A stretch of 30,245 nucleotides of DNA from a virus, in the IMG/VR virus record IMGVR_UViG_3300027156_000028, positions 1 through 30,245 of that record; one strand, 5' to 3'. Below the pieces are notes generated by a model that had not been told where the DNA came from, ran no database searches, and saw only the letters and a list, made by a program, of their open reading frames with translations. Position numbers and translations under genes: made by a program. This document shows positions 2 to 28,862 of this stretch, piece by piece (positions within the stretch are counted from its first letter, which is position 1; every line of letters starts with the position of its first letter).

Positions 2-814
2 GGTTTAAGCCATATTACTGGTTTAAGCGTAACAAGCAATACAACTTATACAATCACAGTTGGCGCAGGAGGAGGACAAAATGTTGGAGGAGGATCAGCG
101 GCTGGAAACAATGGTGGACATTCTTCTGCTTTTAATTATACTGGATATGGAGGAGGCGGTGGAGGAGGAGAAAACATAAGCGGGAAAACTGGAGGTTGCG
201 GAGGAGGGGCGGGATTTTATTCAAATGGTTTTGATGCAGATGGCGCATCTGGATTTTCTGGATCTAATGCAACAGGATTATCTTTCTTAGGTTGGACTAA
301 CGCAACGTATAATACAGGTCGTTATAATTTTCAAGGATTTTCTGGAGGAAGGCCATATTACTATGGTGCTGGTGGTGGAGGAGGCGGAACATTGCAATCA
401 GGATCAGCGGGTGCCAATAATCAATATAATATTATTAGAGCAACTGGTGGACAAGGATGGGTTATGGAAAATGCAGCAAGCACAATTTATAATCCAACAT
501 TTGGCTATCCAACACTCTATTATCAATGGGTTTCAAAAGCTTTAACAAGTGGAGGCGCTAACGTTCGTCTTGGCGCTGGTGGTGGAGGCGGTGGAACTTA
601 TATAGGCAAAGGAGGCACTAACGCTGGGAATGGAAGCGCAGATTGGGGCGAAGATTATTATGCTTTTCCCGCCGGTTTAGGAGGCAGTGGAACTTATTAT
701 GGCGCTGCTGGAGGGGGTGGTGGTAGAGGAGGTGGAGGCGGTGGAGCAGGTTATAGCGGAGTAGTTATTGTCGCTTATGTAACTGGGGATTACAGTAATC
801 CATTAGGAAACTAA
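2..814 (+). CDS. Glycine-rich tail adhesin-like protein (5' end missing)
   Basis: The reading frame is open from base 2 to the TAA at 812-814, so the gene begins upstream of the window; an ATG at 392 is only internal. The 270 visible residues are dominated by glycine runs (GYGGGGGGGE, GAGGGGGGT twice, GGGGGRGGGGGGAGYSG) alternating with Tyr/Asn/Ser-rich stretches. The C-terminus reads GYSGVVIVAYVTG, the usual closing beta strand of phage glycine-rich domains. Known relatives in this style include T4-like gp38 adhesins, whose tips are polyglycine-II helix bundles. It is likely an exposed fibre tip or adhesin that contacts the host; this is inferred from composition and from neighbouring fibre-related genes, not from a specific binding motif. 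The next gene follows after one base. Confidence 0.75.
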   Translation, partial: GLSHITGLSVTSNTTYTITVGAGGGQNVGGGSAAGNNGGHSSAFNYTGYGGGGGGGENISGKTGGCGGGAGFYSNGFDADGASGFSGSNATGLSFLGWTNATYNTGRYNFQGFSGGRPYYYGAGGGGGGTLQSGSAGANNQYNIIRATGGQGWVMENAASTIYNPTFGYPTLYYQWVSKALTSGGANVRLGAGGGGGGTYIGKGGTNAGNGSADWGEDYYAFPAGLGGSGTYYGAAGGGGGRGGGGGGAGYSGVVIVAYVTGDYSNPLGN

Positions 815-815
815 C

Positions 816-1133
816 ATGCCAATATACGCAAAAATAAATTTAGAGAACATTGTTGAAAATATTATTGTTGCAGAGCAAGATTTTATTGATTCTTTACCAG
901 ATTCTGGTTTTTATAAACTGGGAGAATTTCCTATTATCGATAAGAAACCAAGGGCAAATATGGGAAATGTATATATGCCCGAATTAAATGCGTTTGTTGA
1001 ACCCAAACCATATTCGTCTTGGGTTTTAGATCAAAATTATGATTGGCAACCTCCCGTGCCTTTCCCAATACTACCTGGAGATTACGAATGGGACGAAACA
1101 ATTCAAAATTGGAGGAAGTTAGATGGCGCTTAA
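816..1133 (+). CDS. Small tail-fibre-associated protein
   Basis: A 105-residue protein that starts one base after the glycine-rich adhesin, with AGGAAA about six bases before the ATG. It has an N-terminal 'MPIYAKI..ENIVENIIVAEQDFIDSLP' pattern and a C-terminal SSWVLDQNYDWQPPVPFP then YEWDETIQNWRKL pattern. This Trp/Pro-rich tail (W-x-LD-x-x-x-x-W-x-PPVPxP followed by Y-x-WDE-x-x-x-x-W) is familiar from small proteins next to fibre genes in T4-like cyanophages and other aquatic phages, where the exact role is not established. It may be a fibre accessory or assembly protein. The 3' end overlaps the glycosyltransferase start by 11 bases, so translation is probably coupled. Confidence 0.6.
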   Translation: MPIYAKINLENIVENIIVAEQDFIDSLPDSGFYKLGEFPIIDKKPRANMGNVYMPELNAFVEPKPYSSWVLDQNYDWQPPVPFPILPGDYEWDETIQNWRKLDGA

Positions 1134-2172
1134 TTATTTAATGAGAGAGAACAGAAATTCTGTTTTCGTTAATACTAATCAAGATAAAGATTTAATTTTA
1201 GCTCATCTAAAAAACAAAATGGATGAGACAGCTTTAAAAAGCGCCGCCCCAATTGGTCAAAAAAATTTGATTTATTTTACTGTATTTAAGGAAGAGTCGT
1301 ATTTAGACTTATTGGAAATTTGTTTAAAAAGCATAGCAAAATATACTCCTACCCCATGTTTGTTTGATATATTGTTCATCACTCAAGAAAGTTTTGTTGA
1401 AAGAATAAAGGCTTTTCAAGTTTTACAAAACTTTAATTACGATTTTCATGTCACAAAAAATACAAATGATGGCGTTCAAGCTTCAATGAAGAAATTGAAA
1501 ATTTTTAATTATAAAAACATTGATGATTATAAAAATATACTTTTCTTAGACTGTGATATAATTTGCGTAAAAAATATGAATATAATATTCAATCATATTT
1601 ATGATACAGAGTATTTGCAAGTAGCTTCTAACGGAGCATTAACTCACAGTGTATGGGGGCATAGAGGAGTATTTTGGAATTTAGATTACATGACTCAGGA
1701 ACAAGCTAATTTCATTGAAGAACAAAAACCCATTCCATTTAATGCTGGACAATTTTATTTTTGCAATTCAGAAAGAATGAAAAGTCATTTTGAAAATGTT
1801 TTATGGCTGAGTCAAGCATGGCCTGGTGAGTATTTTTTTGAGCAGTCATTTATGAATTTTTATTTTACGTTAAATGGCTTGTGCAAAAAAACAGTGATAA
1901 ATAATTTAATGAGATTCATTAATATAGGACCAGTGCCAAATGTTAATTTAAATCAGCCTGCCGAAAAAATTCAGCCTATTGGTAGCTGGACAATTAAGGA
2001 TAATAAAAAAATATATAGAATAAAAGATCTAGAAACTCAGAAAGAAAGAGTATCTATGGACTTATTGGGCGAAAATGATCATATCATTCATTTTATAGGC
2101 TTGTCTTTGTTTGGCAGCAGCAAGAAAAATTTTATCTTAAACTTTTTAACTAAAAATAATTTATGCCTATAA
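1123..2172 (+). CDS. GT8-like glycosyltransferase (GT-A fold)
   Basis: A 349-residue predicted glycosyltransferase. After a variable N-terminus of about 45 residues the GT-A core begins (NLIYFTVFKEESYLDLLEICLKSI). The metal/nucleotide-sugar signature D-x-D lies in NILFLDCDIICVKN (D143-C-D145). Later parts fit GT8-type enzymes: FNAGQFYFCNSERM near residue 206, FFEQSFMNFYF near 243, and the C-terminal IIHFIGLSLFGSSKKN, whose His323 would be the family's metal-ligand histidine. Donor and acceptor cannot be read from sequence. A GGAGG ribosome site lies seven bases before the ATG at 1123, inside the previous gene. It overlaps the sulfotransferase by 10 bases. It probably acts in the infected cell on a surface glycan or virion protein. 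Confidence 0.8.
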   Translation: MALNYLMRENRNSVFVNTNQDKDLILAHLKNKMDETALKSAAPIGQKNLIYFTVFKEESYLDLLEICLKSIAKYTPTPCLFDILFITQESFVERIKAFQVLQNFNYDFHVTKNTNDGVQASMKKLKIFNYKNIDDYKNILFLDCDIICVKNMNIIFNHIYDTEYLQVASNGALTHSVWGHRGVFWNLDYMTQEQANFIEEQKPIPFNAGQFYFCNSERMKSHFENVLWLSQAWPGEYFFEQSFMNFYFTLNGLCKKTVINNLMRFINIGPVPNVNLNQPAEKIQPIGSWTIKDNKKIYRIKDLETQKERVSMDLLGENDHIIHFIGLSLFGSSKKNFILNFLTKNNLCL

Positions 2173-2867
2173 ATAGAAAATTAAATCTTGTATTTTTGCA
2201 TATACCAAAGGCCGCAGGAACGACAGTTGAAAAAATATTAGATATGTCTTGCAGGAGTAACTTTTTCACAATAGATAGAAATCATGGCGGCAATGTAAAT
2301 TGGATTTCTTTAGAAAAGTTTTCAGAAGAAGAAAAGCAATTTTGCGCGGCAAAAAATATGCAGCATTTTACTTTTTTAGAGCTTAAAAAAATACTTGAGC
2401 CAGAATTTTTTGATAACGCTTTTAAATTTTCTGTAGTGAGAAATCCTTATTCAAGAATAGTTTCTGAATATTTTTTCGTCAAAAAAATAGCTGGATTTAA
2501 TCCTCTTTTGACGAATATTGAAGTAGACTGCCCATCTTTTTCTTTTTTTGTTAAAACACAATTAATTTTGCCCCGTTTGCAGAGAGTCCATAAATTCGAT
2601 GGTCATTTAGAAACTCAAGCTAGTTTTCTTTTAAATGAAAACGGCGATCTATCATCTATAAATAAAATATATAAATTTGAAACAGAAATGCAGGATTGTT
2701 TAGATTTTTGCCGTCAAAGAGCTAATATAAATATTATGAACATTCATGCTCGCGAAGGAGATTATGACAAAAATATAGCTCAATATTATGATGCAGAAAC
2801 CAAAGATTTAGTTTATAATTTTTATAAACAAGATTTTGATTTATTTGGTTATAGTAAAGATTTATAA
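2163..2867 (+). CDS. Sulfotransferase family protein
   Basis: A 234-residue protein with both PAPS-binding signatures of the sulfotransferase family. The 5'-phosphosulfate loop is FLHIPKAAGTT (residues 11-21, Lys16), and the 3'-phosphate site is FSVVRNPYSRIVSEYFF (Arg93, Ser97). The short size and HIPKAAGTT form match the group that includes carbohydrate sulfotransferases and many phage and cyanobacterial relatives. It should transfer sulfate from PAPS to a hydroxyl group, plausibly on a sugar, but no acceptor can be deduced. The start overlaps the GT8-like gene, which suggests glycosylation followed by sulfation of the same target. There is no signal peptide or membrane segment, so it is cytoplasmic. 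Confidence 0.85.
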   Translation: MPINRKLNLVFLHIPKAAGTTVEKILDMSCRSNFFTIDRNHGGNVNWISLEKFSEEEKQFCAAKNMQHFTFLELKKILEPEFFDNAFKFSVVRNPYSRIVSEYFFVKKIAGFNPLLTNIEVDCPSFSFFVKTQLILPRLQRVHKFDGHLETQASFLLNENGDLSSINKIYKFETEMQDCLDFCRQRANINIMNIHAREGDYDKNIAQYYDAETKDLVYNFYKQDFDLFGYSKDL

Positions 2868-2869
2868 TT

Positions 2870-3634
2870 ATGGCAAAGTACGCGGCTCTTCCTTTTACAA
2901 GGAAACAATCAGAAAGAAAAATATCAGGTAGAACTTTTGGCGATCAAGAAATCCCAAATATCACTGGGATTACTAGTGGATCATGCAGTAACTGTTGCTC
3001 CCAAAATGGGAATTTTGTTGGCCCATTTGAAGGTCTTACTAGTGCTATTGCAGATATAACTATTTATTTCAATCCATTATGTACTATCGGCGGTGGCGCA
3101 AGATATCAAGTTTGGATGGCTCCATCTGGAAGATTTAATAATAATTGCACAAATAATTATATGCGACCGTTAACTAGCGGTTCTGGGTCTATAACACCAG
3201 GAGTGAGTTCTCTTACATTCAATAATAATAATACTAGTTACTGGCAAAACGGCTCTCTTCCTGGCAATTATTACAATTCTTCGGTAAATATTCCGACGAA
3301 TGATTATGGAGTGGCTGCATTTTATAAAATCTGCATAACTAATAATGTTGGTAGCGGATGCTCTCCTTGGACTGCTGTTGTGACAAAAGAAGCTTATAAC
3401 TGCAATTGTACTTGTCCAGCTGGTTACGTTGATGCTTGTTGCTGTTACGATTGCAATCTAGATGGTATAACTTGTTGCGATTCCCCACCAGGTACCCCTG
3501 CCAGTAGTTGCTGTAGAGCAACATGTGATCCAGGTGATCCTGGATATGCTTGTGGATACGATTGTCCAGGAGGAGAATCGTGTGATACTTGTTATACTTG
3601 CAACGCTCCATTAAACACAGGAGCCTGCTCTTAA
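2870..3634 (+). CDS. Cysteine-rich virion-associated-like protein
   Basis: A 254-residue protein not matched to any family I can name. Residues 1-175 look like a soluble beta-rich virion domain (Asn/Ser/Gly/Thr-rich, e.g. SSLTFNNNNTSYWQNGSLPG) with seven scattered cysteines. Residues 176-254 hold 18 cysteines in 79 residues, as CxCxC, CCC, CC and CxxC groups separated by Gly/Pro/Asp turns (GYVDACCCYDC, SSCCRATCDPGDPGYACGYDC). That density resembles disulfide-stabilised EGF/knottin-like or metal-clustering modules. The N-terminus lacks a signal peptide. The position between sulfotransferase and zinc-finger-like genes in a fibre-gene operon suggests a virion surface component. Its stop codon overlaps the next start (TAATG). 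Confidence 0.55.
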   Translation: MAKYAALPFTRKQSERKISGRTFGDQEIPNITGITSGSCSNCCSQNGNFVGPFEGLTSAIADITIYFNPLCTIGGGARYQVWMAPSGRFNNNCTNNYMRPLTSGSGSITPGVSSLTFNNNNTSYWQNGSLPGNYYNSSVNIPTNDYGVAAFYKICITNNVGSGCSPWTAVVTKEAYNCNCTCPAGYVDACCCYDCNLDGITCCDSPPGTPASSCCRATCDPGDPGYACGYDCPGGESCDTCYTCNAPLNTGACS

Positions 3635-4341
3635 TGAATAAAACAGAAACCCAAAAAAGAATAGACGCGGCTAAAGAAAATTTAGCCTCTGAAAATATTG
3701 AGCAGTTTCCTTCTGTTTTTCAGATGGCAAGAAATTTAGCTAAACAAGCTTGGTTAAGTGGAAAAGGGGCGGTTATTGGACAAGGCTTTTTAACAACAGC
3801 AGAGAAAGCTCATTCAAGATTAACTATCTGCGAATCTTGTGAATTTTATAGAGACTCTAGATGTTTAAAATGCGGCTGCTTTATGGATAAAAAGGTTCAT
3901 TTAGAAGCAGCTACTTGCCCAGTGGATAAATGGGGAGAAAATACTGGGATAAAATCAGTTGCTCAAATTCCAACTCCAAACTTTGACCTTTCAAAGTTTC
4001 CAGAAAATGAAAGAATTGAATTAGAAAATCTTGCAAAACAAGCAGTTTCCGATGGAACTGGAACCCCAATCAATCCAAAAGTTTTTTCTTATAAAGAAAT
4101 TCAATACAAGGCTTACAGAGATAATTATGGCGTAGTGCATATTGGATTATATATTCCAAAACTTTCTATAGTTGATCAAATGACAGAAGATGAAAAAAGA
4201 AATTTTTATATTCTAGCTCATAAAGCTAGAGCTTTAAAAGAATCATTTATTTACAGAGATAAGCAATTTTTTATTCAAAATTTGCCTAATGGAGATTTTG
4301 CGATACGCTCAAGGCGATTAAACGGAACAATGGAATTATAA
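3634..4341 (+). CDS. Protein with cysteine zinc-finger-like cluster
   Basis: I place the start at 3634 (235 residues), where ATG overlaps the previous stop as TAATG. A longer frame from 3589 would add 15 residues that lie within the cysteine-rich gene and look like out-of-frame sequence. Residues 63-100 carry LTICESCEFYRDSRCLKCGC, then a Lys-rich linker and ATCPVDKW: Cys66, 69, 77, 80, 82 and 95. This CxxC-x7-CxxCxC-x12-CPxxxW pattern occurs in many small phage proteins and probably binds zinc; function unknown. Residues 120-235 are alpha/beta without a recognisable family (YKAYRDNYGVVHIGLYIP). It is the last gene before the strong terminator at 4342-4369. Confidence 0.6.
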   Translation: MNKTETQKRIDAAKENLASENIEQFPSVFQMARNLAKQAWLSGKGAVIGQGFLTTAEKAHSRLTICESCEFYRDSRCLKCGCFMDKKVHLEAATCPVDKWGENTGIKSVAQIPTPNFDLSKFPENERIELENLAKQAVSDGTGTPINPKVFSYKEIQYKAYRDNYGVVHIGLYIPKLSIVDQMTEDEKRNFYILAHKARALKESFIYRDKQFFIQNLPNGDFAIRSRRLNGTMEL

Positions 4342-4394: not shown

Positions 4395-5516
4395 TTATGG
4401 GGCAACAGCTACGAATACACCATTTGTGGTATCGCCAATGCCACCGATCTGAGTAGTGAATACCAGATCAACTGATTTGTTGTCGCCAATTGAGCTTGAG
4501 AAGTTTTCGCTGGCGATTTTGCATCCTTTTACTTGGTAAACCATCTTGCTTCCACCAGTAGCGTCCTTAAATTGGAATGTAAGGGTTTTATCAGCATCGC
4601 TTGTGATGATAGAGCTAAGATCTCCAGCAGCTTTCAAGTCAGCAACTGTTGCGGATACGTTAACTGTAACTTCTACAGGGAAGTCAATGACCTTTGCATA
4701 ACCGAAGTTGCTGCCAAGACGCTGAAGTGTTGAGCGTCCGATTGGAACTTCAATTGAGAAAGATTGAATGTGGGCAGCTGTGTTGCTGGCATTATCAATG
4801 CCTGTTGGAAGGTCTGTGAGAATTCCTTCTTGCAAGGTAAGAGTAATGTCACCAGGGCGAAGAGCGCCTACTTGAACGCTTCCAGTTACAGGAGCAGGAA
4901 GAGCAAAGCTATTTGTTCCTGTCGTGGATGTTTCGATTGAAAGCGCAGGGTTAAGACCTGTTCTTCCTTCGCAAACATTAATGTTTAGACCTTCTACTCC
5001 AACTGAAACTGTTGGAATTGCTCCTACAGCAGCTTCAACTGAATAGTTTGTCACGAAGCCGTTGCCAATTGAAATGGTGCTGGCTGTTGTGCCAGTCATA
5101 TTGGCGGCACCAGTGGTCAATCCGTTAGCGTCAACACCTTCTGGAGCAGTAAAGATGTGGAAATTTCTACCAGAAAGAGTTCCTACATTTGCTGTGTCGA
5201 TAAGGCCGCTGATAAAAGAAGGAGCGGCGCTTAATGTTGCACCAGTAGCAAAACCTAAAAGTCTTTCGTTTGTGCCATCGTGCAGATAGTATGTAAAATC
5301 AAGATTTACAGTGGGAGCCTCCATGATGATGGAGTCGATACGAGCAAGATTACCAAATTGATTGATATTCTGGCGAGAAACCGAGAAGCCATAATTGGCT
5401 GATTGAACACGGTGAAGCTGGGCGATATCTCCTGCGGTATGGTTCGCATTGGTAGCGATATTCCCAGTACCAACGAAAAGCGCCTCTGATTGATAAATGA
5501 CTCTATTGCGTGGCAT
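4395..5516 (-). CDS. Major tail tube protein
   Basis: A 373-residue tail tube-like protein. It is clearly paralogous to the protein at 17245-18402 and more distantly to that at 15498-16277: shared YGFSVSRQNINQFGN / YGFSFDVERTPLKQLG, APTVNLDFTYYL..NE / APDVDFNLEYYL..NE, SFSIEVPIGR / SLSISVPIER and SSSIGDNKSV / GSSIGDRSVI. These blocks fit a beta-sandwich ring subunit. It is visibly richer in G+C than its neighbours, as expected for the most abundant tail protein, and it ends the minus-strand connector operon, where the tube gene normally sits in phage gene order. A promoter-like element lies just upstream (5538-5561). The start ATG has no strong Shine-Dalgarno. Assignment as the main tube rather than a minor ring is inference from order and composition. 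Confidence 0.75.
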   Translation of the reverse strand: MPRNRVIYQSEALFVGTGNIATNANHTAGDIAQLHRVQSANYGFSVSRQNINQFGNLARIDSIIMEAPTVNLDFTYYLHDGTNERLLGFATGATLSAAPSFISGLIDTANVGTLSGRNFHIFTAPEGVDANGLTTGAANMTGTTASTISIGNGFVTNYSVEAAVGAIPTVSVGVEGLNINVCEGRTGLNPALSIETSTTGTNSFALPAPVTGSVQVGALRPGDITLTLQEGILTDLPTGIDNASNTAAHIQSFSIEVPIGRSTLQRLGSNFGYAKVIDFPVEVTVNVSATVADLKAAGDLSSIITSDADKTLTFQFKDATGGSKMVYQVKGCKIASENFSSSIGDNKSVDLVFTTQIGGIGDTTNGVFVAVAP

Positions 5517-5537
5517 AATTTAAAAGAAGGTTTAAAA

Positions 5538-5561
5538 TACTTTACATTTTTTTATATCTAA
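5538..5561 (-). promoter_or_regulatory. Promoter-like element before tail tube gene
   Basis: On the minus strand this reads TTAGATAT, seven A, then TGTAAAGTA, about 20 bases before the tail tube start codon. It is a near copy of 7452-7474, differing by one base change and one base of length in the A-run. It contains TATAAA, similar to the T4-type late promoter core TATAAATA. It lies in a 53-base gap and would give the tube gene its own transcript in addition to read-through from upstream. No -35 box is evident. Function is inferred from conservation and position. Confidence 0.5.
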
Positions 5562-5569
5562 ATGGAACG

Positions 5570-6409
5570 CTAAACTCTTGGGTAGCGGTATTTAATAATC
5601 TCAAAATCTAGAAATCCAACGTAAGCTTTTGAGCCTAATTTTGATCGGTCTCTAAGCTTTGATGCAGTAACGTCATCTATGTATAATTCTGTTGTGATAT
5701 CTGGATTAGTATAGTAATCGTCAAACGAATAAGTGCCAGATTTTATATCGCCATATTCCGTTATTGGAAAGTCTGTGAAATCTTTTAATTTAAATACTTT
5801 TTGAGTTGAATCGGAGAATAAAGATAAAACTCCATCAAGTTGATAAGAACTTTCGGCAAAAACTACAGCCCTCATTAAAGATCTAGTTTCATCTTCTCCT
5901 CCAAACGCGAAAGGAGTGTTTTTGTTACCATCAGATAAAACGTAAATTGCAGGGAAAGACTCGTCATATGGGGCAATATAAGTCCCAGTTTGAGGAAACT
6001 TAGAATTTGCTTCTATATTGTTTTCTAATATTAAATCTTCTTCGTTTTCGTTTGAGAGATATATATTAAAATCTTTAACCGAATAAGAGCCAGTTACGTT
6101 AACGCCTGTTGTTGTTCCACTTACTAAAGCTCTTCCATTTATAAAGTCTAAAACAACTCCGTTATTTCTATTTTTAAAAATTCCGCTTACATAAACCCCA
6201 CTTGGGATAGTTGCACCAGTTATACTTGAATCGAAAACCCACTGTTTATGTGGGCTACCAAAAACTTTATAAGTGCTTGATACTCTAGGATCTGAGTAAT
6301 AGTAGAGCTTACCAGTTTTATTTGTATAAGCCTCTCCTTTGTCTAACAAATGATGGTCGAGCCATAAAGCAAATGAGGTCGTGATATTATGTTGATATTG
6401 AGGCTTCAT
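5570..6409 (-). CDS. Virion protein, possibly tail terminator/neck
   Basis: A 279-residue protein with no family I can name with certainty. It starts MKPQYQHNITTSFALWLDHHLLDKGEAY, then is rich in beta-strand and turn residues (VYVSGIFKNRNNGVVLDFINGRALVSG), with SFPAIYVLSDGN and DETRSLMRAVVFAESSYQLDGVLSLF in the middle, and ends YVGFLDFEIIKYRYPRV. There is no signal peptide or membrane helix. It overlaps the preceding gene by 23 bases and directly precedes the tail tube gene in the transcript. In many long-tailed phages the gene before the tube encodes the tail terminator or a neck protein, so that role is inferred from position. The stop is TAG at 5570-5572. Confidence 0.5.
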   Translation of the reverse strand: MKPQYQHNITTSFALWLDHHLLDKGEAYTNKTGKLYYYSDPRVSSTYKVFGSPHKQWVFDSSITGATIPSGVYVSGIFKNRNNGVVLDFINGRALVSGTTTGVNVTGSYSVKDFNIYLSNENEEDLILENNIEANSKFPQTGTYIAPYDESFPAIYVLSDGNKNTPFAFGGEDETRSLMRAVVFAESSYQLDGVLSLFSDSTQKVFKLKDFTDFPITEYGDIKSGTYSFDDYYTNPDITTELYIDDVTASKLRDRSKLGSKAYVGFLDFEIIKYRYPRV

Positions 6410-6992
6410 CTAATTGAGAAAATTTTTTTTCGTACTTGTTCAAAATCTCTGTTATGTATTTTACATTTTTAAATCTACTTTTTCCGCGTAATTTTGATTT
6501 AACTTGCACGGCGGTTTCAGAACGTGAATTTTGCAATCCTCCACGCAGGGTATAAAAATACTCTCCAAGTCCAGAAATGCCAGTTTCTATTCCTTTGGCC
6601 CAACTTCTACCTTCTGCCCAAGGCATTGGGGTCACTTCCCATATATCTTCTTTTGCTGGTATATATATGTTCCAAACTGCACCTCCGTCTACAAGCCTAG
6701 AAAAAACTATTGTACTTTTTTCAAACTCTTCTAAAACTGGTTCCACAGGATCTTCACCTTCATAAAAACCAATGTAAGAAAATAAATTACCGTAACCGCC
6801 TAAAGTATTGCTAATATTTTGAGCCTGTGGCCCTTCTTTAATTTCTTTCGTTACGGGATGATTTAGGAATTCTTTTATCATTTCTCTTTTGATTTGTTCA
6901 AATTTCATTCTCGCAATTCTTTCAAAATCATTTCTTAGCAATTTACCAGATTGCTTATTTATAGCTTCTTGAGCGTCTTTTGGTAAGGCCAT
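6387..6992 (-). CDS. Neck/tail-completion-like protein
   Basis: A 201-residue protein. The N-terminal half is helical and charged (DFERIARMKFEQIKREMIKEFLNHPVTKEI). The middle is a short beta-rich section (FEKSTIVFSRLVDGGAVWNIYIP) and the C-terminal half contains MPWAEGRSWAKGIETGISGLGEYFYTL then a basic helix. The W-x-x-G-R-S-W-x-x-G-I-E-x-G-I-S-G-L pattern and the size fit proteins of the HK97 gp10 / neck type that complete the head-tail joint, but the match is by resemblance only. It follows the 6995-7447 gene after two bases and overlaps the next by 23 bases, so all are one operon. Confidence 0.5.
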   Translation of the reverse strand: MALPKDAQEAINKQSGKLLRNDFERIARMKFEQIKREMIKEFLNHPVTKEIKEGPQAQNISNTLGGYGNLFSYIGFYEGEDPVEPVLEEFEKSTIVFSRLVDGGAVWNIYIPAKEDIWEVTPMPWAEGRSWAKGIETGISGLGEYFYTLRGGLQNSRSETAVQVKSKLRGKSRFKNVKYITEILNKYEKKFSQLDEASIST

Positions 6993-6994
6993 TT

Positions 6995-7447: not shown

Positions 7448-7451
7448 AATT

Positions 7452-7474
7452 TACTTTACACTTTTTATATCTAA
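7452..7474 (-). promoter_or_regulatory. Promoter-like element in divergent gap
   Basis: On the minus strand this reads TTAGATAT, AAAAAG, TGTAAAGTA and is followed within five bases by the ATG of the connector-like gene. It matches the element at 5538-5561 apart from one base change and one base of length. It lies in the 52-base gap between divergent operons. On the plus strand the same gap is AT-rich (TTATATCTAATTTATTATAT) and may also carry the promoter for the gene at 7500. Confidence 0.5.
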
Positions 7475-7499
7475 TTTATTATATGGTAAGGTAAAAGGT

Positions 7500-18416: not shown

Positions 18417-20993
18417 ATGTCCACAGGAAGCAGAAGAATAGATGACTTACAAGAGGTCAATATCTTAGACGATAAAGACCAGTTTATATTTTTTCAAAAC
18501 TCCACTAAAAGAACTAAGCGCGTTACCAAAGGTAATATGGCGAATAGTGGGGGAGGATTGAGGGGAATATTCATTAACGCCACAACAAATGAAAATGTTT
18601 GGGGTGTTGCAGATTATGCTAGAACTACTGCTAACGCTGCAAACATTAGCGCGTCTGGCGCGCAAGCAAGCGCAAATGGAAGAAATAAAATTTTTTATCA
18701 AGCCGATACTCCAGTAGCAAGTCAGTTTCAAGGATATATAGCGGCCACAACATTATACGCTGATGCAATTTCAAATACTGGTGGAGTTCCAATAAGGGTT
18801 GGAAGTATTTTAACTGGAACCGGAATAAGCGCTGGAACTGTTGTGACTGCATTTGGTACTGGATCTGGCGGAGCAGGAACATATACCATAAATAATAGTC
18901 AAAATGTCGGTTCAGCTGGATCAAAAATAACTATAACAGCAGATCCTCAATTTTTAGAGGGAGATATTTGGTACGAAACCGATAATAATTATAGAACCTA
19001 TAGGCGCAGTTCATCTGGAACTTGGGTTAGTGCATTTGCTCCAATACTTACCTTAGATGGAAGCAATAAAGTAAGTGGATTTATTAGAGTTTCTGACATA
19101 AATGGCAACACTGCCACAGATGAATTTGCTGTAGTTGCCAGTAAATTTCAAATTTGGAACGGTTCAAGCGATGAAGTTCCATTTACGGTAGATGCTAGTA
19201 GTCCAGCCGTTACTTTCACTGGATCTATAACTGGATCAGTTTTAACATTAAATAGTAATGCATCTGGTACATTAAAATTAGGAACCAATTTAACTGGGAC
19301 GGGAGTTGCTGCAAATACAGTTATTAAAACTTTATTAAGTGGAACAATAGGACAATCTGGTTCAACTTATTTTTTGTCTCAAATTACAAGTCCAAGCGTT
19401 TCAAGCGTATCAATGACTGCTAGTTATGCTGGGCAAGTTAGAATAACCGACGCTTTGATTCAAACTCTTGATGCTGGAAAAATAACTTCTGGCTTTTTAT
19501 CTTCTCAGGTAATTGAGCTTCCAAATTCTCAATCTTATATACAATCAGCAAATTTCGTTGAAACGTGGACTAGTGGAAAGCAATATGTCAAAGATGGAGA
19601 AAGGACACAACCATCAGACCAGTCTAAAGTTAAAGTTTTAGGAAATGATGGAACATATACAGTATATAAAGCTACAGTAACGCATACTTCTGGAGCAACA
19701 TTTGCTGGAGATTCTGCGAATTGGACAACAAGTGGAGTTTCTCAAACACTTCAAGGTTTCAGAATTGTCGGTAATGGGCAGGCTGATTTTCAAGACTGTA
19801 CTGTTCTTGGCACAATAAGAAGCTCAGTTGGACATTTTGGAAGCAATGTAAATGCAGTAAAAATAGATAGTAGTGGATTAGTAATTGGTACTAGCGGCAG
19901 TATAATATCCGCTGGATTAACCTATACGAGCAGTGGTTGGGGTAGTGGAAGTGGGTTTTTTCTTGGAAACACTGGATCAGCATATGAATTTTTTATTGGA
20001 AATAATACAAGATATTTAAGGTGGGACGGAGCAGATTTATCAGTAAATGGAAGTTTGGTAGCAAAAGTAGGATCAACGGCTCAAACAAGCATATCTGCTG
20101 GATTAGTGCTTCAAAGTGGATTTGGCATATCTCAAAATACCAATACTTCAATTTTAACCATAAATTCAGGATCTAATAATGGAAATCAATATGGATCTCA
20201 AATAGATATGGTGGCAACTGATTTTGCTTCAACAGGAAAAGGAACAGTTATAATAACTGCTGGGTGGAAAACTGGCTATAGCGGAGCAAGAGATGGAGTT
20301 ATAGAATTTAGAACTCACCAAACAAATAGTCCAACTGAATTAAAGCAGAATGACAATTCTAGCTTTTCTCCACCAAAATATTCTGAAGTAGGTATGCGCA
20401 GAATGATAATAAAACGAGATGGAGAAATAATAATTGGAGATGATCCAGGAGAAGATCCAGAAGAAGCGGGTCAAGATGGTGGACATGGAATATTAACTGT
20501 AGTTAATCAAATTAGAGTTGGTGGCTCTATAGATAGTTTTGGAACAGATGGAACGCTTTATGTTAGAGACAATGATAATTATAATCGAATTTCATTGATT
20601 GCAGATGATAGCGGACCATCTAAAATTTTAGTGAAAGATGGCTCTAACAATACAAAAATAACAATTTCCTCTAGCGGAGATATTACTGCCGATTCTTTCA
20701 CCACATCATCCTCTAAAAAATTTAAAACCGATATCAAACAATTAAATTCTGGTATTGAAACTATAGATAAACTTAAGCCGGTGTCATTTAAGCGAAAAGG
20801 TACAAAGCAACAAGACATTGGTCTTATTGCAGAAGAAGTTGATAAAGTCTTGCCGGTTATCGTTAAACATAACGATAAAAACGAAGCCGAAGGTCTCGAC
20901 TATTCTAAGCTTACCGTTATTCTGATAAACGCCGTCAAAGAGCTTTCTGCTGAAGTTAAAGAACTCAAAAAGAAGCTAAAAGATGCCAACTGA
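18417..20993 (+). CDS. Tail fibre with S74 intramolecular chaperone
   Basis: An 858-residue fibre. Residues 1-50 are a short attachment domain (DDLQEVNILDDKDQFIFF). Residues 104-175 and about 267-340 are two copies of a small beta domain (RVGSILTGTGISAGT / KLGTNLTGTGVAANT, each followed by a GTYTI / STYFL strand). Residues 365-560 are stalk with GFFLGNTGSAYEFFIGN. The C-terminal 95 residues are an intramolecular chaperone of the endosialidase/S74 class: SSKKFKTDIKQLNSGIETID, DIGLIAEEVDKVLPVIV, LDYSKLTVILINAVKEL. The catalytic Ser-x4-Lys dyad matches Ser765 and Lys770, so it probably trimerises the fibre and then cleaves itself off. Receptor unknown. Confidence 0.85.
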   Translation: MSTGSRRIDDLQEVNILDDKDQFIFFQNSTKRTKRVTKGNMANSGGGLRGIFINATTNENVWGVADYARTTANAANISASGAQASANGRNKIFYQADTPVASQFQGYIAATTLYADAISNTGGVPIRVGSILTGTGISAGTVVTAFGTGSGGAGTYTINNSQNVGSAGSKITITADPQFLEGDIWYETDNNYRTYRRSSSGTWVSAFAPILTLDGSNKVSGFIRVSDINGNTATDEFAVVASKFQIWNGSSDEVPFTVDASSPAVTFTGSITGSVLTLNSNASGTLKLGTNLTGTGVAANTVIKTLLSGTIGQSGSTYFLSQITSPSVSSVSMTASYAGQVRITDALIQTLDAGKITSGFLSSQVIELPNSQSYIQSANFVETWTSGKQYVKDGERTQPSDQSKVKVLGNDGTYTVYKATVTHTSGATFAGDSANWTTSGVSQTLQGFRIVGNGQADFQDCTVLGTIRSSVGHFGSNVNAVKIDSSGLVIGTSGSIISAGLTYTSSGWGSGSGFFLGNTGSAYEFFIGNNTRYLRWDGADLSVNGSLVAKVGSTAQTSISAGLVLQSGFGISQNTNTSILTINSGSNNGNQYGSQIDMVATDFASTGKGTVIITAGWKTGYSGARDGVIEFRTHQTNSPTELKQNDNSSFSPPKYSEVGMRRMIIKRDGEIIIGDDPGEDPEEAGQDGGHGILTVVNQIRVGGSIDSFGTDGTLYVRDNDNYNRISLIADDSGPSKILVKDGSNNTKITISSSGDITADSFTTSSSKKFKTDIKQLNSGIETIDKLKPVSFKRKGTKQQDIGLIAEEVDKVLPVIVKHNDKNEAEGLDYSKLTVILINAVKELSAEVKELKKKLKDAN

Positions 20994-22806
20994 AACTAAA
21001 TTTATTTGCGTTAGTGGAGCGACTAATATTGATTTAAGCGGAATATTTGAAGACCTTGATGGTGGGACTTCTTACGGAACGCAAACTAAATTCAAAGTAG
21101 GTTCTATTGATTTAACTGGTTATTTCCATGCGTCAACAAGCTCAGAAGATAGGCCGAGTTTTAATACGGGTTTTAAAGTAAATGGAACTGATCTTTCTAC
21201 ACTTTTTAGAAGAAGAGGGTTTGTAGGAATAACTATAACGACACAGCCAACAAATCAAATTGTAGTTAATAATACGTCTGCAACGTTTTCTATAGCTGCT
21301 ACGGCTCTTGGAACTCCAACTTATCAATGGTATAAAAATAGCAGTATAATATCTGGAGCCACATCAACGACTTATACAACGGGAGCTTTAACTACAGCAA
21401 ATGATACAGATACTTATTTTTGTAGAGTAAGTTATGGTGGATCTTCGGTTGATAGTAATTCTGTAAGCACAAAGATAAAACCATATATTATAACAAATCC
21501 AATTGGAGGCAGTTTCAATGAAACCGATGGAATGTCGTTAAGCGTTGTTGCTGGAGGAAGTCCCACTTTATCTTATCAGTGGTACAAAAATGGAAATATA
21601 ATATCTGGAGCAACAAGTTCTTCTTATCCAGCTTCTGGTCAATTTTCTTTAACTTCGTCAACGGCTGGAACATATACTTGCAAAGTTACAAGTACGCATG
21701 ATGCTGTTGGAGTTACATCGTCTGGAGCAACATTAACTATAATTCCACCAATTGTAACAATTTCTTCATTTAATAACCAAACACAGTTTAATGAAACAGA
21801 TACTGTTCAGTTTTCAAGCAGCTTAAGTCAAGGAACGAATGTAACGTATCAGTGGTATAGAAATAACAATATTATTTCTGGAGCTACAAGCTCAACTTAT
21901 AATTTTGCAATTTCGAGTTTAAACACTGGAACATATAAAGTTAGGGCAACTAACGGTGGCGGCTTTGACGATTCAAATGAAATTACAATTTCTATAATTG
22001 CGCCAATTGTAACTATCAGCAGCACTCAATATATATATAATAATACAAATGCCGTTGAATTAAGTTCCTCATTATCACAAGGAACCAATGTAACATATCA
22101 ATGGTATGGACCAGCGGGCTTAATTAGTGGAGCTACAAATTCTAATTATACATTCACAATGAGCAACTCTACACACGGAAATTATTATGTAAGAGCAACT
22201 AATGCAGGTGGATTTGATGATTCAAATGTTGTCACAGTATATATGAATCCAATAATAACAGACGATCCAGATACTCAAACCGTAAACGCTGGAGTTTCTG
22301 TTACTTTTAGTGTTACTGCTGCGGGTGGCCCAAGTCTTTCTTATCAATGGTACGAAAATGGCAGTGCGATATCTGGCGCCACTAATCCCTCTTATACATT
22401 TACGACCGCTTCTTCAGATAACGGCAAAACTTATTACTGTATTGTCTCTGGGGTATCTGGTACTACTCCAGACACATCTACCACCGCAACATTAACAGTA
22501 GAGTTTGCCCCAACTGTTGGAAGTGTTTCTGTTAATGGGTCAACAGTAACTTATAATGAAGAAAACTTTAATATTGGGAATGGTGATTCATTTACATTAG
22601 CGGTGTCTAGCGTAAATGATGGTCAGCCAAACGCAACCGGAGGTTGGTATAAGTGGAACGGGAGTACCGCTTATGACATATTTTTAAGCTCTGACTTAAG
22701 TTATAGCTTAACGCAGGTGGATAATTCTACCGAATACTATAGATTTATATTGACAAATTCTGAGGGAACAGCACAATCTTATGAGATATCTATTACTACC
22801 TCGTAA
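20983..22806 (+). CDS. Multi-Ig-domain virion surface protein
   Basis: A 607-residue protein that overlaps the fibre gene by 11 bases. Residues 1-80 are an attachment-like region with two GxxDLSxxF-like elements (TNIDLSGIF, GFKVNGTDLSTLF). Then come five Ig-like domains of 82-91 residues, each with a YQWY tryptophan motif (residues 114, 198, 289, 372, 454) followed by an ISGAT strand. A sixth diverged domain (GGWYKWNGSTAYDIF) follows. Domains 1, 2 and 5 keep a late Cys (YFCRV, YTCKV, YYCIV) but its usual disulfide partner is not evident. Phage Ig domains commonly decorate tails or capsids and weakly bind surface sugars. The next gene follows after two bases. Confidence 0.85.
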   Translation: MPTETKFICVSGATNIDLSGIFEDLDGGTSYGTQTKFKVGSIDLTGYFHASTSSEDRPSFNTGFKVNGTDLSTLFRRRGFVGITITTQPTNQIVVNNTSATFSIAATALGTPTYQWYKNSSIISGATSTTYTTGALTTANDTDTYFCRVSYGGSSVDSNSVSTKIKPYIITNPIGGSFNETDGMSLSVVAGGSPTLSYQWYKNGNIISGATSSSYPASGQFSLTSSTAGTYTCKVTSTHDAVGVTSSGATLTIIPPIVTISSFNNQTQFNETDTVQFSSSLSQGTNVTYQWYRNNNIISGATSSTYNFAISSLNTGTYKVRATNGGGFDDSNEITISIIAPIVTISSTQYIYNNTNAVELSSSLSQGTNVTYQWYGPAGLISGATNSNYTFTMSNSTHGNYYVRATNAGGFDDSNVVTVYMNPIITDDPDTQTVNAGVSVTFSVTAAGGPSLSYQWYENGSAISGATNPSYTFTTASSDNGKTYYCIVSGVSGTTPDTSTTATLTVEFAPTVGSVSVNGSTVTYNEENFNIGNGDSFTLAVSSVNDGQPNATGGWYKWNGSTAYDIFLSSDLSYSLTQVDNSTEYYRFILTNSEGTAQSYEISITTS

Positions 22807-22808
22807 AA

Positions 22809-24764
22809 ATGAAAATTCTTTACATAGCCCCTCACCTTTCAACAGGTGGATTGCCACAATTTCTTTTAAAGAAAATACAGATATTAAAAAAAGAATGTGA
22901 AATATATTGCGTTGAATATGCTGATCACGGTGGGTTTGTAGTACAAAAAAATCAAATCATCGATTTGCTAAAAGATAAATTTTTTACTTTAAGAGAAGAT
23001 AAAAATGATTTATTAAAAATCATAAATCAAATAAATCCAGATGTTTTGCATCTTGAAGAGATGCCAGAATATTTTATGGATAATGGTTTGGCTGAAAAAA
23101 TATATTCTAAAGAAAGAAAATATACTATAGTTGAAACTTCTCACGATAGCAGCTTTGATCCATCTTCAAAAAGGTTTTTCCCAGATAAATTTACATTTGT
23201 AAGTGAATTTCAAAAAAGAAATGTAGAATCTTTAAAAATATCTTCGGAGGTTCACGAATATCCGATTTCAATAAAAATCAGAAAGTCAAGAGAAGAGGCT
23301 TTAAAAGTATTAGGACTAGATCCATCTAAAAAACACGTTGTTAACGTTGGTCTTTTTACCCCAAGAAAAAATCAAGCAGAAATTATAGAGTATGCAAAAA
23401 GTCTTTTAAATTACCCGATCCAATTTCACTTTATTGGAAATCAAGCTGATAACTTTAGATTTTATTGGGAGCCTTTGATGAAAGAGTGGCCAAGTAATTG
23501 TACTTGGTGGAATGAAAGAAAAGATGTTGAAAATTTTTACCAAGCAGCAGATCTTTTTCTATTTACCTCAAGAGGATCAGATAATAATAAGGAAACAAGC
23601 CCTCTTGTTATAAGAGAAGCCATTTCCTTCAATGTTCCAAGCTTAATTTATAATTTGCCGGTATATCTGGGCATGTATAATAAATTTCATAATATAGAAT
23701 ATTTAAATTTTAATGACTTAAAAGAAAACGAAGATAAAATCTTAAATAAACTAAATCTTGCAAAGCTTAATGATTATGTTTTTATTGTATCAAGTTATCC
23801 AACAAATAATTGTATAACGCAAACAACTCAAAAATGCATTGAGAGTTTAAACAAAATTAGTAATGCTCCTGTTATTTTGGTATCGCACTGCTCAGTTCCA
23901 GAGGCGTTGCAAAACACTTCAGATTATTCAATAGTAGATAAAAACAATATTTTAACCCGACATACTTTTTATAAAAGATTTACTGGCTATGCAAGTGAAA
24001 ATAATAGCAATTATCAAATTCAATTATTTTTAGACAAAACTGATAACGACATATATCACGGACCAGCCGTATATACCAATTATTATAATGCGATTAATTT
24101 TGCTAAAAAGCTTGGCTATAAAAAAGCTATATGCATGAACTTTGATTTTATCTTAAATGATAAAAAATTCTTATCTAAAGTCCTCGCAAAACTAGAGCGA
24201 AGTAACGGTTATTTTGTTGAAGAGCAGTGTCAAGAGGGCAAAACATTTAAAACAGTTTTTCATGCAGTGCGAACAGATTTGTTTGCCGATAAATTTCCAT
24301 TGATTAAAAACGAATCTGAATACAACAGCTGGATGGAGCGAGTAAAGTCAGAATCTAATGGTCTGGAAAATATTTACTTTCATAACCTAAAAGAAGCCGA
24401 TAATATTTATATGTCTTCTTTAAACGAATACGCTGAAGACACAAAACAGTGCCAAATAGATTCCAATTCTCAAGTAGAGTATTTCGCTGTTCTTCCTGTT
24501 CAAGACGAAAATAAATTAGCTATAGTTTTTCATACTTCCAATTCTATTGATAATAGATTTGCAGAATTAATAATTGGCGCGCAAAGTTCAAGCGTTCAAA
24601 TAAACGGTAAACAGACATTTATAAAAATTATTGATTGGCCGATTGTACCAACAGATGTTGAATTAAAGGTAAGCGAAGAAAAAGAAATTTATACTAAAAA
24701 AGTAGTTGTCGATGAGCAGTATTTGTCTAAAATAAATCAACTTGGCTTGGTCAAAAAAATATGA
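22809..24764 (+). CDS. Two-domain glycosyltransferase (GT-B plus GT-A-like)
   Basis: A 651-residue protein. Residues 1-320 are a GT-B (GT4-like) enzyme: MKILYIAPHLSTGGLPQFLL, then HVVNVGLFTPRKNQAEIIEY at the start of the second Rossmann lobe, and SPLVIREAISFNVPSLIYN, the donor-binding signature. Residues 323-560 look like a GT-A type domain: DYVFIVSSYPTNNCITQTTQ, CIESLNKISNAPVILVSHCS, GYKKAICMNFDFILNDKKFL. The usual DxD is degenerate here (NFDF, Asp446), so activity of this half is uncertain. Residues 570-651 form a beta-rich tail. It may add two sugars in sequence. It shares ATGA with the next gene, implying a common pathway. Confidence 0.75.
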   Translation: MKILYIAPHLSTGGLPQFLLKKIQILKKECEIYCVEYADHGGFVVQKNQIIDLLKDKFFTLREDKNDLLKIINQINPDVLHLEEMPEYFMDNGLAEKIYSKERKYTIVETSHDSSFDPSSKRFFPDKFTFVSEFQKRNVESLKISSEVHEYPISIKIRKSREEALKVLGLDPSKKHVVNVGLFTPRKNQAEIIEYAKSLLNYPIQFHFIGNQADNFRFYWEPLMKEWPSNCTWWNERKDVENFYQAADLFLFTSRGSDNNKETSPLVIREAISFNVPSLIYNLPVYLGMYNKFHNIEYLNFNDLKENEDKILNKLNLAKLNDYVFIVSSYPTNNCITQTTQKCIESLNKISNAPVILVSHCSVPEALQNTSDYSIVDKNNILTRHTFYKRFTGYASENNSNYQIQLFLDKTDNDIYHGPAVYTNYYNAINFAKKLGYKKAICMNFDFILNDKKFLSKVLAKLERSNGYFVEEQCQEGKTFKTVFHAVRTDLFADKFPLIKNESEYNSWMERVKSESNGLENIYFHNLKEADNIYMSSLNEYAEDTKQCQIDSNSQVEYFAVLPVQDENKLAIVFHTSNSIDNRFAELIIGAQSSSVQINGKQTFIKIIDWPIVPTDVELKVSEEKEIYTKKVVVDEQYLSKINQLGLVKKI

Positions 24765-26884
24765 AAGTTATTAATGTAACTCCTGGTTTGTTGGCTATAC
24801 CTCCAAATGGATGGGGGGCGGTAGAAAAAATCATTTGGGATTATCATCTTCAACTAGAAAAAAACGGCATCAAAAGCGAAATAAAGTATCTAAATGATGT
24901 CAATTATGATGATAGTCAAGTAGTTCATGTTCATGTCGCTAATCTAGCAAACATGTGCTTTGAAAGAGGAATTCCATATATTTTTACCATTCACGATCAC
25001 CATGCTTTCTTGTATGGAAAAGATTCTCACTGCTTTAAAGAAAATTTAAAAGCCATAGAAAATAGCGTAATATCGACATCTCCATGCAAGTTTTTCGTCG
25101 AATATTTTGGAAGTAAAAAATTAAGATATTTTTCTCACGCTGTAAATACGGATGTTTTTACTCCGACAAAAGACAAATTAAATTTTAATCTTTTAAAAGA
25201 TAGTGTTAGTTTGCTATGCGTCGCAAATAACGGGTATGCTGGTAATCCAAATGCAGACAGAAAGGGTTTCAAAATTGCTATTGAAGCAGCGATGAAACTT
25301 GACTTGCCCATAACTGTAGCTGGCCCCCAAAATAATGAAAACTTTTTTTCTACCTTGCCAAGCGAAATAAATAATTATTCAAAACTGACTAAGTTTTTTG
25401 ATTTGAGCGAAACTCAACTCATAGAGCTTTACGGTAAGCACGATATTTTTCTGCATTTTTCGGAATTAGAAGCGGGCCATCCAAATTTAACTTTACTTGA
25501 AGCTATGTCTTGTGGACTGCCAGTTGTTGGGACTTTTGAAGAAAAACAATACGACGGGATGTGCGTCACAGAAAGAACTTTGGAATCAGCAATTGAGGGA
25601 ATTAAAACAGTAGTAAATAATTACTCAAGTTTTAAAGAAAAAGCTTTGGCGAACGCTCAAAAAAATTCTTATTCAAATAGAGTAAATGATTTGGTCAATT
25701 TGTACAGTGAATACAGAGAGCAGATTTTTGCAAATAGATTTATTCAGTCTTATCGGGACACAAAAATAAATACCGAAGATAATAAAGTTATTGTAGATTT
25801 TCGCCAAGGAGTTAAAGCTGAAGTTATTGGCTCTCGAAAGAAAACATATGATATTGAATTTATAGATGACTCTTCTGGCGAATTAATATACGCGACAACA
25901 ATAAATAATAATATGTGGTCAAGGCCAAAACGAAGTTATTTTGTAAACTGGAAAGTGGATGTTTATGAAAAAACACCTAATGGCAGAATGTTGATTTTTT
26001 CTGAAAAATTAAATTTAAAAGGCAAAAAGGTAAAAATAAATGTAGAAACAGGAAGCTTGGGTGATTTGTTGGCCTATGTTCCTGTTATAGACAGGTTCCA
26101 AAAAAAGCATGAATGTCAAATAGATTGCACTTTATACAATCAAGATTTGCTCAGATCTTTAAAGCAAAATTATAAAAATATAAATTTTATTTCGGAACAA
26201 AATTCAAATAATGGCTATTACGCTGTTTATGACGTAGGTTATTTTATGGACAACTGGATTGATAAATCTGTTGTTAATCCTAGATTAACTAAACTAAATC
26301 ATGTTCCAAGCTATATTTTAGACCTAGAGCATCGCGAGGATAAACCAAAATTATCGTTTCCAAACGTAGGACAGACAAATAAAAAATATGTCTGCATAGC
26401 AACTCAAAGCACGGCGCAATGCAAATATTGGAATAATCCGAATGGGTGGGAAAAGCTGATTCAGCTTTTGAATAAAAAGGGGTATGAGGCTTGGTGTATT
26501 GATAGATATTCGTTATTTGGTAATGCGATAATGAATCCAATTCCCAAAGGGGCAGTTGATAAAACTGGAGATTTCCCTCTTGAGTTAAGAATGTCACAAA
26601 TCCATAACTCAAAATTTTTTATAGGTCTGGGATCTGGCTTGTCTTGGCTAGCTTGGGCTTTGAATAAACCTGTAGTTTTAATTAGCGGGTTTAGCAAGCC
26701 ATTTGCAGAATTTGAAACACCCTATAGAATTATAAATGAAAAAGTATGCAATGGATGCTGGAACAATGAAAAGCATACGTTTGATAAAAATAACTGGCTG
26801 TGGTGTCCAGAAAATAAGAATTTTGAATGCACAAGATCCATTACTCCAGAAATGGTAATGGAGAAGATTAGTAATCTACTTTAA
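24761..26884 (+). CDS. GT4 glycosyltransferase fused to TibC/Aah-type O-heptosyltransferase
   Basis: A 707-residue fusion. Residues 1-325 are a GT4 GT-B enzyme (NVTPGLLAIPPNGWGAVEKI near the start; EAGHPNLTLLEAMSCGLPVV near 237-256). Residues about 345-425 form the strand-loop-strand region (VIVDFRQGVKAEVIGSR, TINNNMWSRPKRSYFVNWKV) typical of bacterial autotransporter heptosyltransferases. Residues 427-707 are the GT9-like catalytic part: GSLGDLLAYVPVIDRFQKKH (431 onward), GLGSGLSWLAWALNKPVVLI, and a four-Cys cluster C663-x2-C666-x15-C682-x7-C690, like the iron-binding motif of TibC. Known enzymes transfer heptose to serines of autotransporter adhesins in Gram-negative bacteria. The target here is unknown. 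It overlaps the previous gene by ATGA and converges with the FmdB-like gene. Confidence 0.85.
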   Translation: MKVINVTPGLLAIPPNGWGAVEKIIWDYHLQLEKNGIKSEIKYLNDVNYDDSQVVHVHVANLANMCFERGIPYIFTIHDHHAFLYGKDSHCFKENLKAIENSVISTSPCKFFVEYFGSKKLRYFSHAVNTDVFTPTKDKLNFNLLKDSVSLLCVANNGYAGNPNADRKGFKIAIEAAMKLDLPITVAGPQNNENFFSTLPSEINNYSKLTKFFDLSETQLIELYGKHDIFLHFSELEAGHPNLTLLEAMSCGLPVVGTFEEKQYDGMCVTERTLESAIEGIKTVVNNYSSFKEKALANAQKNSYSNRVNDLVNLYSEYREQIFANRFIQSYRDTKINTEDNKVIVDFRQGVKAEVIGSRKKTYDIEFIDDSSGELIYATTINNNMWSRPKRSYFVNWKVDVYEKTPNGRMLIFSEKLNLKGKKVKINVETGSLGDLLAYVPVIDRFQKKHECQIDCTLYNQDLLRSLKQNYKNINFISEQNSNNGYYAVYDVGYFMDNWIDKSVVNPRLTKLNHVPSYILDLEHREDKPKLSFPNVGQTNKKYVCIATQSTAQCKYWNNPNGWEKLIQLLNKKGYEAWCIDRYSLFGNAIMNPIPKGAVDKTGDFPLELRMSQIHNSKFFIGLGSGLSWLAWALNKPVVLISGFSKPFAEFETPYRIINEKVCNGCWNNEKHTFDKNNWLWCPENKNFECTRSITPEMVMEKISNLL

Positions 26885-27761: not shown

Positions 27762-28862
27762 TTAATGAAGTTGATTTATAATTGAAACAATTTGTCCCAC
27801 AGTCCTTTCGTAAGTGAAAGTTTGTCCCAATTTTACCCCTTCTTCATTTATTTTTTTGTCTTCAACAAGTTTAACAGCTTTTTCCATAGCTGCGACAGCC
27901 TGATCTTCAGTAAAATCATAGATATTACCTTGATTAAATGGCGCGCCTTTCACAAAGAAAGTATTATCGTATGCTGGAATTTTACCAGAAGGTTCAACTA
28001 GAATTGAGTTTGTTTTTGTAGCCCAATCTAAATGGCTAGTGGCATTAAGCACAATGCTCCATTTGCCTAAGCATGTTGCGTTAAAAGCTGGCAGTCCCCA
28101 ACCCTCTGCTCCAGATAGACCGCTCAAATCGATATCAGCAGAGTTCAAAATATCATTAACTTCTGAGTTCGTTTTTACGAAAGGTAGAAAATTAATGTTC
28201 CAAGCCAACGACCTGTATCCATCCATTATGTTTTTCATCAAATCTTTATTCAAGAAAGGATTTAAAATAGAACAGGTAAGTTGATATTTCGGATTGTTTC
28301 CGTATTTCTTTATCCAAGTCTTGATGATTTTGTCAGTATGCTTTCTTTTTTCAAATTTGCCCATTAAAATAAAATGGGTTTTACCTTCAAGATATGTTTT
28401 TGACGTTTTAAAGAAATCGCTGTCAAATCCTAATGGAACAGAGTAAACTTTTCCAAGACCGGAAAAAGCAAAGCTTCTAGCGGAATTTGCGCTCGAAAAA
28501 ATTGTTGTATCCTGTAGGCCGACGATGCAGCGTTCTACATCTGTCGGCTCGTCAAGTTCATAAAAAGTATAAAGCACTTGTTTTGGGCAAATTCTATTTT
28601 GCGCTCCATTTAAATGCCAAAGCTTTAAACTTATAGTATCCTTTGTTAAGAATTTAAACCTATTATTTAAGCATGACTGAATCCAGTCAGCAAAATCTTT
28701 TTCAATCTTATCAAATGAGCTTAGATTGACCTCACCTATAGGGTGAATCACAAAAGAAAAAGAAGAATCCTTTTGGGAAATCTTATAAAATTCTTTTAAG
28801 AAATTATAAGAAACGTTCCCAAATGAAATTTGGTTTAACGGAGCTTCAAAGGATATTTTCAT
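27762..28862 (-). CDS. GT-B glycosyltransferase (GT4-like)
   Basis: A 366-residue protein. The start MKISFEAPLNQISFGNVSYN and N-terminal lobe are a GT-B Rossmann domain. The second lobe contains HFILMGKFEKRKHTDKIIKT and the donor-site signature GAEGWGLPAFNATCLGKWSI, like GT4-type E-G-x-G-L-P. The C-terminus is helical (DQAVAAMEKAVKLVEDKKIN). Substrate unknown. Its ATG overlaps the SSB stop by one base, so it is part of the dUTPase-sigma-SSB transcript, which otherwise holds replication and transcription genes. That is unusual placement for a sugar transferase and suggests expression at a different time from the fibre-cluster enzymes. Confidence 0.8.
   Translation of the reverse strand: MKISFEAPLNQISFGNVSYNFLKEFYKISQKDSSFSFVIHPIGEVNLSSFDKIEKDFADWIQSCLNNRFKFLTKDTISLKLWHLNGAQNRICPKQVLYTFYELDEPTDVERCIVGLQDTTIFSSANSARSFAFSGLGKVYSVPLGFDSDFFKTSKTYLEGKTHFILMGKFEKRKHTDKIIKTWIKKYGNNPKYQLTCSILNPFLNKDLMKNIMDGYRSLAWNINFLPFVKTNSEVNDILNSADIDLSGLSGAEGWGLPAFNATCLGKWSIVLNATSHLDWATKTNSILVEPSGKIPAYDNTFFVKGAPFNQGNIYDFTEDQAVAAMEKAVKLVEDKKINEEGVKLGQTFTYERTVGQIVSIINQLH

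Follow-up and report, generated by a model that had tools for sequence, protein, structure and literature searches.

The 30,245-base IMG/VR virus record IMGVR_UViG_3300027156_000028, the whole of which is called the window here, comes from an uncultivated phage. It begins within a fibre-like gene, close behind which lie genes of a predicted glycosyltransferase of the GT8 type and a predicted sulfotransferase (ST). This arrangement raises the question of whether the two enzymes belong together, and whether they act on the phage's own adhesins, on the surface of its host or on another target.

Genes of the adhesin region and the two enzymes

The region in question comprises the following features:

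2..814, + strand: 3' portion of a fibre/adhesin-like gene rich in Gly (32%), which runs off the edge of the window (phrog_2295, E 1e-12)
816..1133, + strand: small fibre-associated protein of 105 aa (phrog_7759), of a type that recurs behind fibre-like genes
1123..2172, + strand: GT8-type glycosyltransferase of 349 aa (PF01501; alignments; AlphaFold model)
2163..2867, + strand: sulfotransferase of the PAPS type, 234 aa (PF03567 Sulfotransfer_2; phrog_3347; alignments; AlphaFold model)
2870..3634, + strand: Gly/Ser/Thr/Asn-rich protein with 10% Cys, directly behind the ST gene (from composition; 32% identity to its counterpart in a sibling phage)
4315..4341, no strand: approximate right edge of an exchanged module, where identity to the sibling rises sharply, from about 50-55% on the left to 87-99%

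The initial annotation, which placed a GT8-like glycosyltransferase and a sulfotransferase in an adhesin operon, agrees with these results. Both enzymes are encoded by open reading frames at the coordinates listed and score above the curated profile cut-offs, and the operon is a reasonable description of a Gly-rich fibre fragment followed by a member of a small fibre-associated family. The lengths of the reading frames exceed chance (among 500 shufflings of the same stretch, no open frame was longer than 121 codons). The product of the 2-814 gene is a candidate acceptor of glycan, the Cys-rich product of the 2870-3634 gene is possibly a surface protein or acceptor, and a role of the 105 aa protein as an assembly chaperone is a guess. 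Two copies of the phrog_7759 family stand behind fibre-like genes in another record, L003 (2128-2439 and 3319-3684), perhaps in connection with fibre assembly.

Further tail genes of the window encode a tape measure protein (9538-15498), a minor tail protein (16277) and a fibre (18417). The products of 4395-5516 and 17245-18402, which lie on opposite strands, are distant paralogues (27% identity, E 2e-27), possibly both tail tube proteins or related to them. No match to the 4395 and 16277 proteins was found among named phages.

The GT8 product passes the PF01501 cut-off in the Pfam profile search (27.0 vs. 24.3 bits, E 4e-6). Alignments of 19 to 30 relatives indicate the conservation of the DxD residues D143 and D145, of the NAGQF and FFEQ motifs, and of H323 and K334. 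Its AlphaFold model (pLDDT 88) resembles the GT-A enzymes UGGT, LARGE1, LgtC and GlyE (Z 16-18.6; 17.0 for LgtC and 16.6 for GlyE). While it shares with GT8 enzymes such as LgtC and GlyE the GT-A fold, the DxD metal site and the C-terminal H...K motif, it differs from them in belonging to a subfamily of its own, which has FFEQ and NAGQF, is paired with an ST and shows 14-18% identity to solved members. As judged from sequence comparisons, viral contigs are the home of this subfamily and cellular genomes are nearly without it, so that it may be called virus-enriched. Among the matches listed by a pattern scan of cellular genomes was one weak relative, and "virus-restricted" is thus too strong a label. 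A search for this GT8 in named phages found none.

The ST product exceeds the PF03567 cut-off by a wide margin (66.4 vs. 22 bits, E 6e-18) and also matches phrog_3347. Residues of its HIPK..G loop (H13, K16, G19), as well as H68, R93 and S101, are kept in alignments of 14 to 34 relatives, and the PAPS 5'-loop, the Arg and Ser of the 3'-phosphate site and the candidate catalytic His are invariant among all 34. The last of these would be H68, by analogy with heparan sulfate enzymes. Heparan sulfate 6-O- and 2-O-sulfotransferases are the solved structures closest to its AlphaFold model (pLDDT 94; Z 9.3-9.5), followed by other sulfotransferases (Z 8-9). The active sites of both enzymes look intact, and their activity is likely, since the active-site residues are conserved and the models are confident and match known enzymes. 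As for the sulfate donor, no PAPS synthesis genes of phage origin were found with an APS-kinase profile in the records; the profile matches in two of them resemble other short P-loop kinases and were rejected. Because no phage-borne supply was recognised, PAPS is assumed to be derived from the host.

Coupling of the pair and its exchange with the fibres

The 816-1133 gene overlaps the GT8 gene by 11 nt, and the GT8 gene overlaps the ST gene by 10 nt, which had been taken to mean that the products are likely made together. The overlaps exist, but they are weak evidence of coupling because overlaps of 1-35 nt are common to many neighbouring gene pairs in the window. The start of the GT8 gene is preceded by a Shine-Dalgarno-like GGAGG, and that of the ST gene is not.

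Stronger evidence comes from the comparison of gene neighbourhoods. A search with GT8 alone yielded 23 loci, 15 of them distinct, and the ST gene was the very next gene in 12 of these 15 and stood two genes on in one more, a count that was obtained before any ST sequence was used in searching. In a wider set clustered at 60% identity, an ST is the next gene after GT8 in 20 of the 32 clusters, a position that it holds behind 2 of the 533 remaining genes of these loci; where it is missing, the next gene is often another glycosyltransferase. Divergence of GT8 is correlated with that of ST (Spearman rho 0.54 for 23 pairs, not reached in any of 2000 permutations), and several divergent pairs have the same 10-nt overlap. 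These comparisons argue that the GT8-ST couple is real.

The link of the couple to fibres, also proposed in the initial annotation, is borne out by the same approach: about twenty divergent phages have the pair behind a fibre-like gene. When a gene rich in Gly/Ser/Thr/Asn, with a product of at least 120 aa, on the same strand and within two genes upstream was counted as fibre-like, 17 of 22 GT8-ST pairs had such a gene, whereas it was present for 6 of the 66 comparable genes (Fisher p 3e-9, to be read as a guide only, as the loci are not wholly independent of one another). Baseplate or lectin domains occur in some of the proteins encoded upstream. The pair is absent, within the available sequence, from five relatives that share structural genes (L032-L035 and L042).

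The history of the region can be followed by means of contig 3300013372_004188, a collinear sibling of the window. While the two phages share 95-100% identity in their tail-tip, SSB, sigma-like and 24761 proteins and 96-100% in their structural genes, identity falls to 62% for GT8, 70% for ST, about 70% for the 816 protein and about 35% for the fibres, including that at 18417. The values of dS are about 2.0 for GT8 and about 0.9 for ST, compared with 0.07-0.14 for two genes to the right of the module edge at about 4315. Such high values beside near-identical structural genes point to the exchange of a module rather than to rapid change, and the GT8 and ST genes thus appear to have been swapped between the siblings together with the adhesin module. 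Their dN/dS values (0.14 and 0.21, respectively) indicate that both are under constraint by purifying selection.

Two local features of the comparison may be added. The 3' end of the ST gene (2700-2850) is 95% identical to that of the sibling, compared with about 70% for the rest of the pair, which marks a recombination tract inside the gene. Near the other end of the window, a small heat-shock-like (Hsp20) protein (27296-27709) is 65% identical in the sibling and its neighbours are 96-98% identical.

The second glycosyltransferase cassette

Glycosyltransferase genes are also found on the far side of the structural genes:

20983..22806, + strand: Ig-like repeat protein with 30% Ser+Thr and five Ig stretches (Pfam; PHROG Hoc-like/tail protein families)
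22809..24764, + strand: glycosyltransferase with a GT4-type domain (Pfam, Glycos_transf_1), with 62-74% identical homologues in the GT8-bearing records G019/G020 and G029
24761..26884, + strand: fusion of a GT4-like domain with a TibC-type protein O-heptosyltransferase (residues about 325-705)
27762..28862, - strand: additional glycosyltransferase (phrog_2170), with 96% identity to that of the sibling

The Ig-like protein directly precedes the glycosyltransferase genes and is a candidate acceptor; it is absent from the sibling, which has a 494-aa gene in its place. Profile matches agree with the earlier reading of the 22809-26884 genes as glycosyltransferases, and they allow the second to be assigned more closely: it scores 359 bits against TIGR04414 (cut-off 200) and matches TibC (PDB 4rap) with E 8e-78. 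TibC O-heptosylates a bacterial adhesin. Residues D435, K555, C663, C666, C682 and C690 of the fusion align with D110 and K230 of TibC, its catalytic Asp and Lys, and with its four iron-binding cysteines. Thus, the C-terminal half of the phage protein is a full-length homologue of the bacterial autotransporter O-heptosyltransferases TibC and Aah. It differs from them in that the predicted phage enzyme is fused to a GT4-like domain and encoded beside tail genes, with no autotransporter among the annotated genes of the window.

A TibC-type gene is present in five of about 32 GT8 records (the window, G001, G019, G020 and G029), most of the records being fragments. The sibling carries one, and the type is found in Microcystis phage Mel-JY01 and in huge phages as well. 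In Mel-JY01 it is annotated only as methyltransferase FkbM (4750-8430 of that record), and no ADP-heptose genes were recognised beside it.

It had been suggested that the GT8-ST pair and the 22809-26884 genes form one glyco-modification cassette split by the structural genes. In favour of this, G019/G020 and G029 carry a GT8 relative, a glycosyltransferase of the 22809 type (62-74% identity) and the fusion (57-58%) in a single gene run, on one strand and within about 11-16 kb; their GT8 members have no ST behind them. The assignment of the 24761-26884 product as a TibC-type fusion speaks for the suggestion as well. GT8 belongs with this pathway in these relatives, and the pair of the window may therefore be its exchangeable end. 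Between the siblings, however, the exchange of the adhesins took in GT8 and ST but not the 24761 gene, which is still 97% identical. Since the parts do not change together, the two cassettes represent at most one pathway and not one inherited unit.

Target of the pair and its meaning

We consider it fairly probable that the pair forms the outer part of a phage-encoded glycan pathway that acts, in the host cytoplasm, on fibre or adhesin proteins of the phage itself and ends in a hexose with sulfate. In such a pathway, virion proteins would receive heptose on Ser/Thr from the TibC-type domain (24761-26884), and the chain would be extended by the GT4-type domains (22809, 24761). GT8 (1123), as a retaining enzyme, would then attach a hexose taken from a UDP-sugar, and sulfate from host PAPS would be placed on this hexose by the ST (2163). 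As the genes of the last two enzymes travel with the exchangeable fibre module, the cap sugar could change along with the adhesin. In its complete form, that is, TibC-type O-heptosylation of the phage's own fibres with a hexose-sulfate cap whose enzymes are swapped with the fibre as a module, we put this forward only tentatively, as somewhat less than an even prospect. The sequences establish the enzyme classes, the intact active-site residues, the coupling and the fibre linkage, but activity, donor, order of steps and the virion as acceptor are inferred. Points that weigh against a pathway of this kind are the missing ST behind the GT8 members of G019/G020 and G029, the TibC-type gene being present in only five of the GT8 records, and the failure to find PAPS synthesis of phage origin.

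The main competing explanation, which we regard as unlikely though deserving serious attention, is that the pair adds hexose and sulfate to host lipopolysaccharide or capsule and thereby blocks superinfection or the sticking of progeny to debris. GT8 enzymes are commonly lipopolysaccharide transferases, and LgtC, which is close to the model in structure, acts on this substrate; sulfotransferases outside the couple, such as that of Pelagibacter phage Mosig, sit in general glycan/nucleotide clusters. This is countered by the recurrence of the pair directly behind fibre-like genes and its exchange along with the adhesin module, and by the fact that the genome also encodes an O-heptosyltransferase of the protein type. 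In addition, no clear membrane segment was predicted and no Pfam match to an O-antigen flippase or GtrAB was found among the scanned proteins of the window, which may be a fragment, so that the flippase and membrane glycosyltransferase partners of a GtrABC-like conversion cluster are lacking there. None of these points against a host-surface target is conclusive.

That the enzymes act on something else, such as a small molecule, nucleotide sugar or host protein, appears improbable. While the ST model is barely nearer to sulfotransferases of carbohydrates than to those of small molecules (Z 9.5 vs. 8.8, a gap of less than 1 Z that does not separate the groups), the steady pairing with GT8, and the other glycosyltransferases that stand in the place of the ST gene, point to glycans. 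The region is a recombining one, as the tract inside the ST gene indicates, and the pair could in principle be an inert passenger of a hotspot beside the fibre genes; the low dN/dS values, the active sites, whose residues do not vary even between very divergent members, and the correlated divergence of the two enzymes make this highly improbable.

The favoured reading, in which virion proteins are the acceptors, joins elements that are individually familiar. GT8, Sulfotransfer_2 and TibC are all known families, and annotated sulfotransferases exist in phages (phrog_3347, phage Mosig). The Mosig-type enzymes belong to the same family as that of the window and have the PAPS motifs, but are encoded in clusters for general metabolism or glycans from which this GT8 is missing, whereas the ST of the window forms a couple with GT8 and follows a fibre gene. 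Among bacterial GT8 enzymes, GlyE acts in the glycosylation of a pneumococcal serine-rich adhesin. Virion proteins of mycobacteriophages are glycosylated, and phage-borne glycosyltransferases have been proposed to modify them; the enzymes are other ones, and to our knowledge no sulfotransferase has been reported in this process. In the case of phage Maravista, glycosylation of virion proteins has been suggested (PMC11256854). Our search of the open-access literature found no paper on phage-encoded sulfotransferases as such and no account of a GT8-ST pair or a TibC-type phage fusion in virion glycosylation, which is weak evidence of absence; judging by titles and abstracts, none of the papers listed there for TibC and phages seems to deal with the glycosylation of phage virions.

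Sugar enzymes encoded by phages are usually listed singly, as auxiliary genes without a known target. The fixed GT8-ST pair, tied to fibres by its position and by exchange in many unrelated uncultivated phages, together with a recognisable protein O-glycosyltransferase encoded by the same genome, leads to a testable claim, namely, that phages may put negatively charged, sulfated glycans on the proteins that contact their hosts. If true, this would matter for host recognition and for the ways in which adhesins escape or make use of surface charge.
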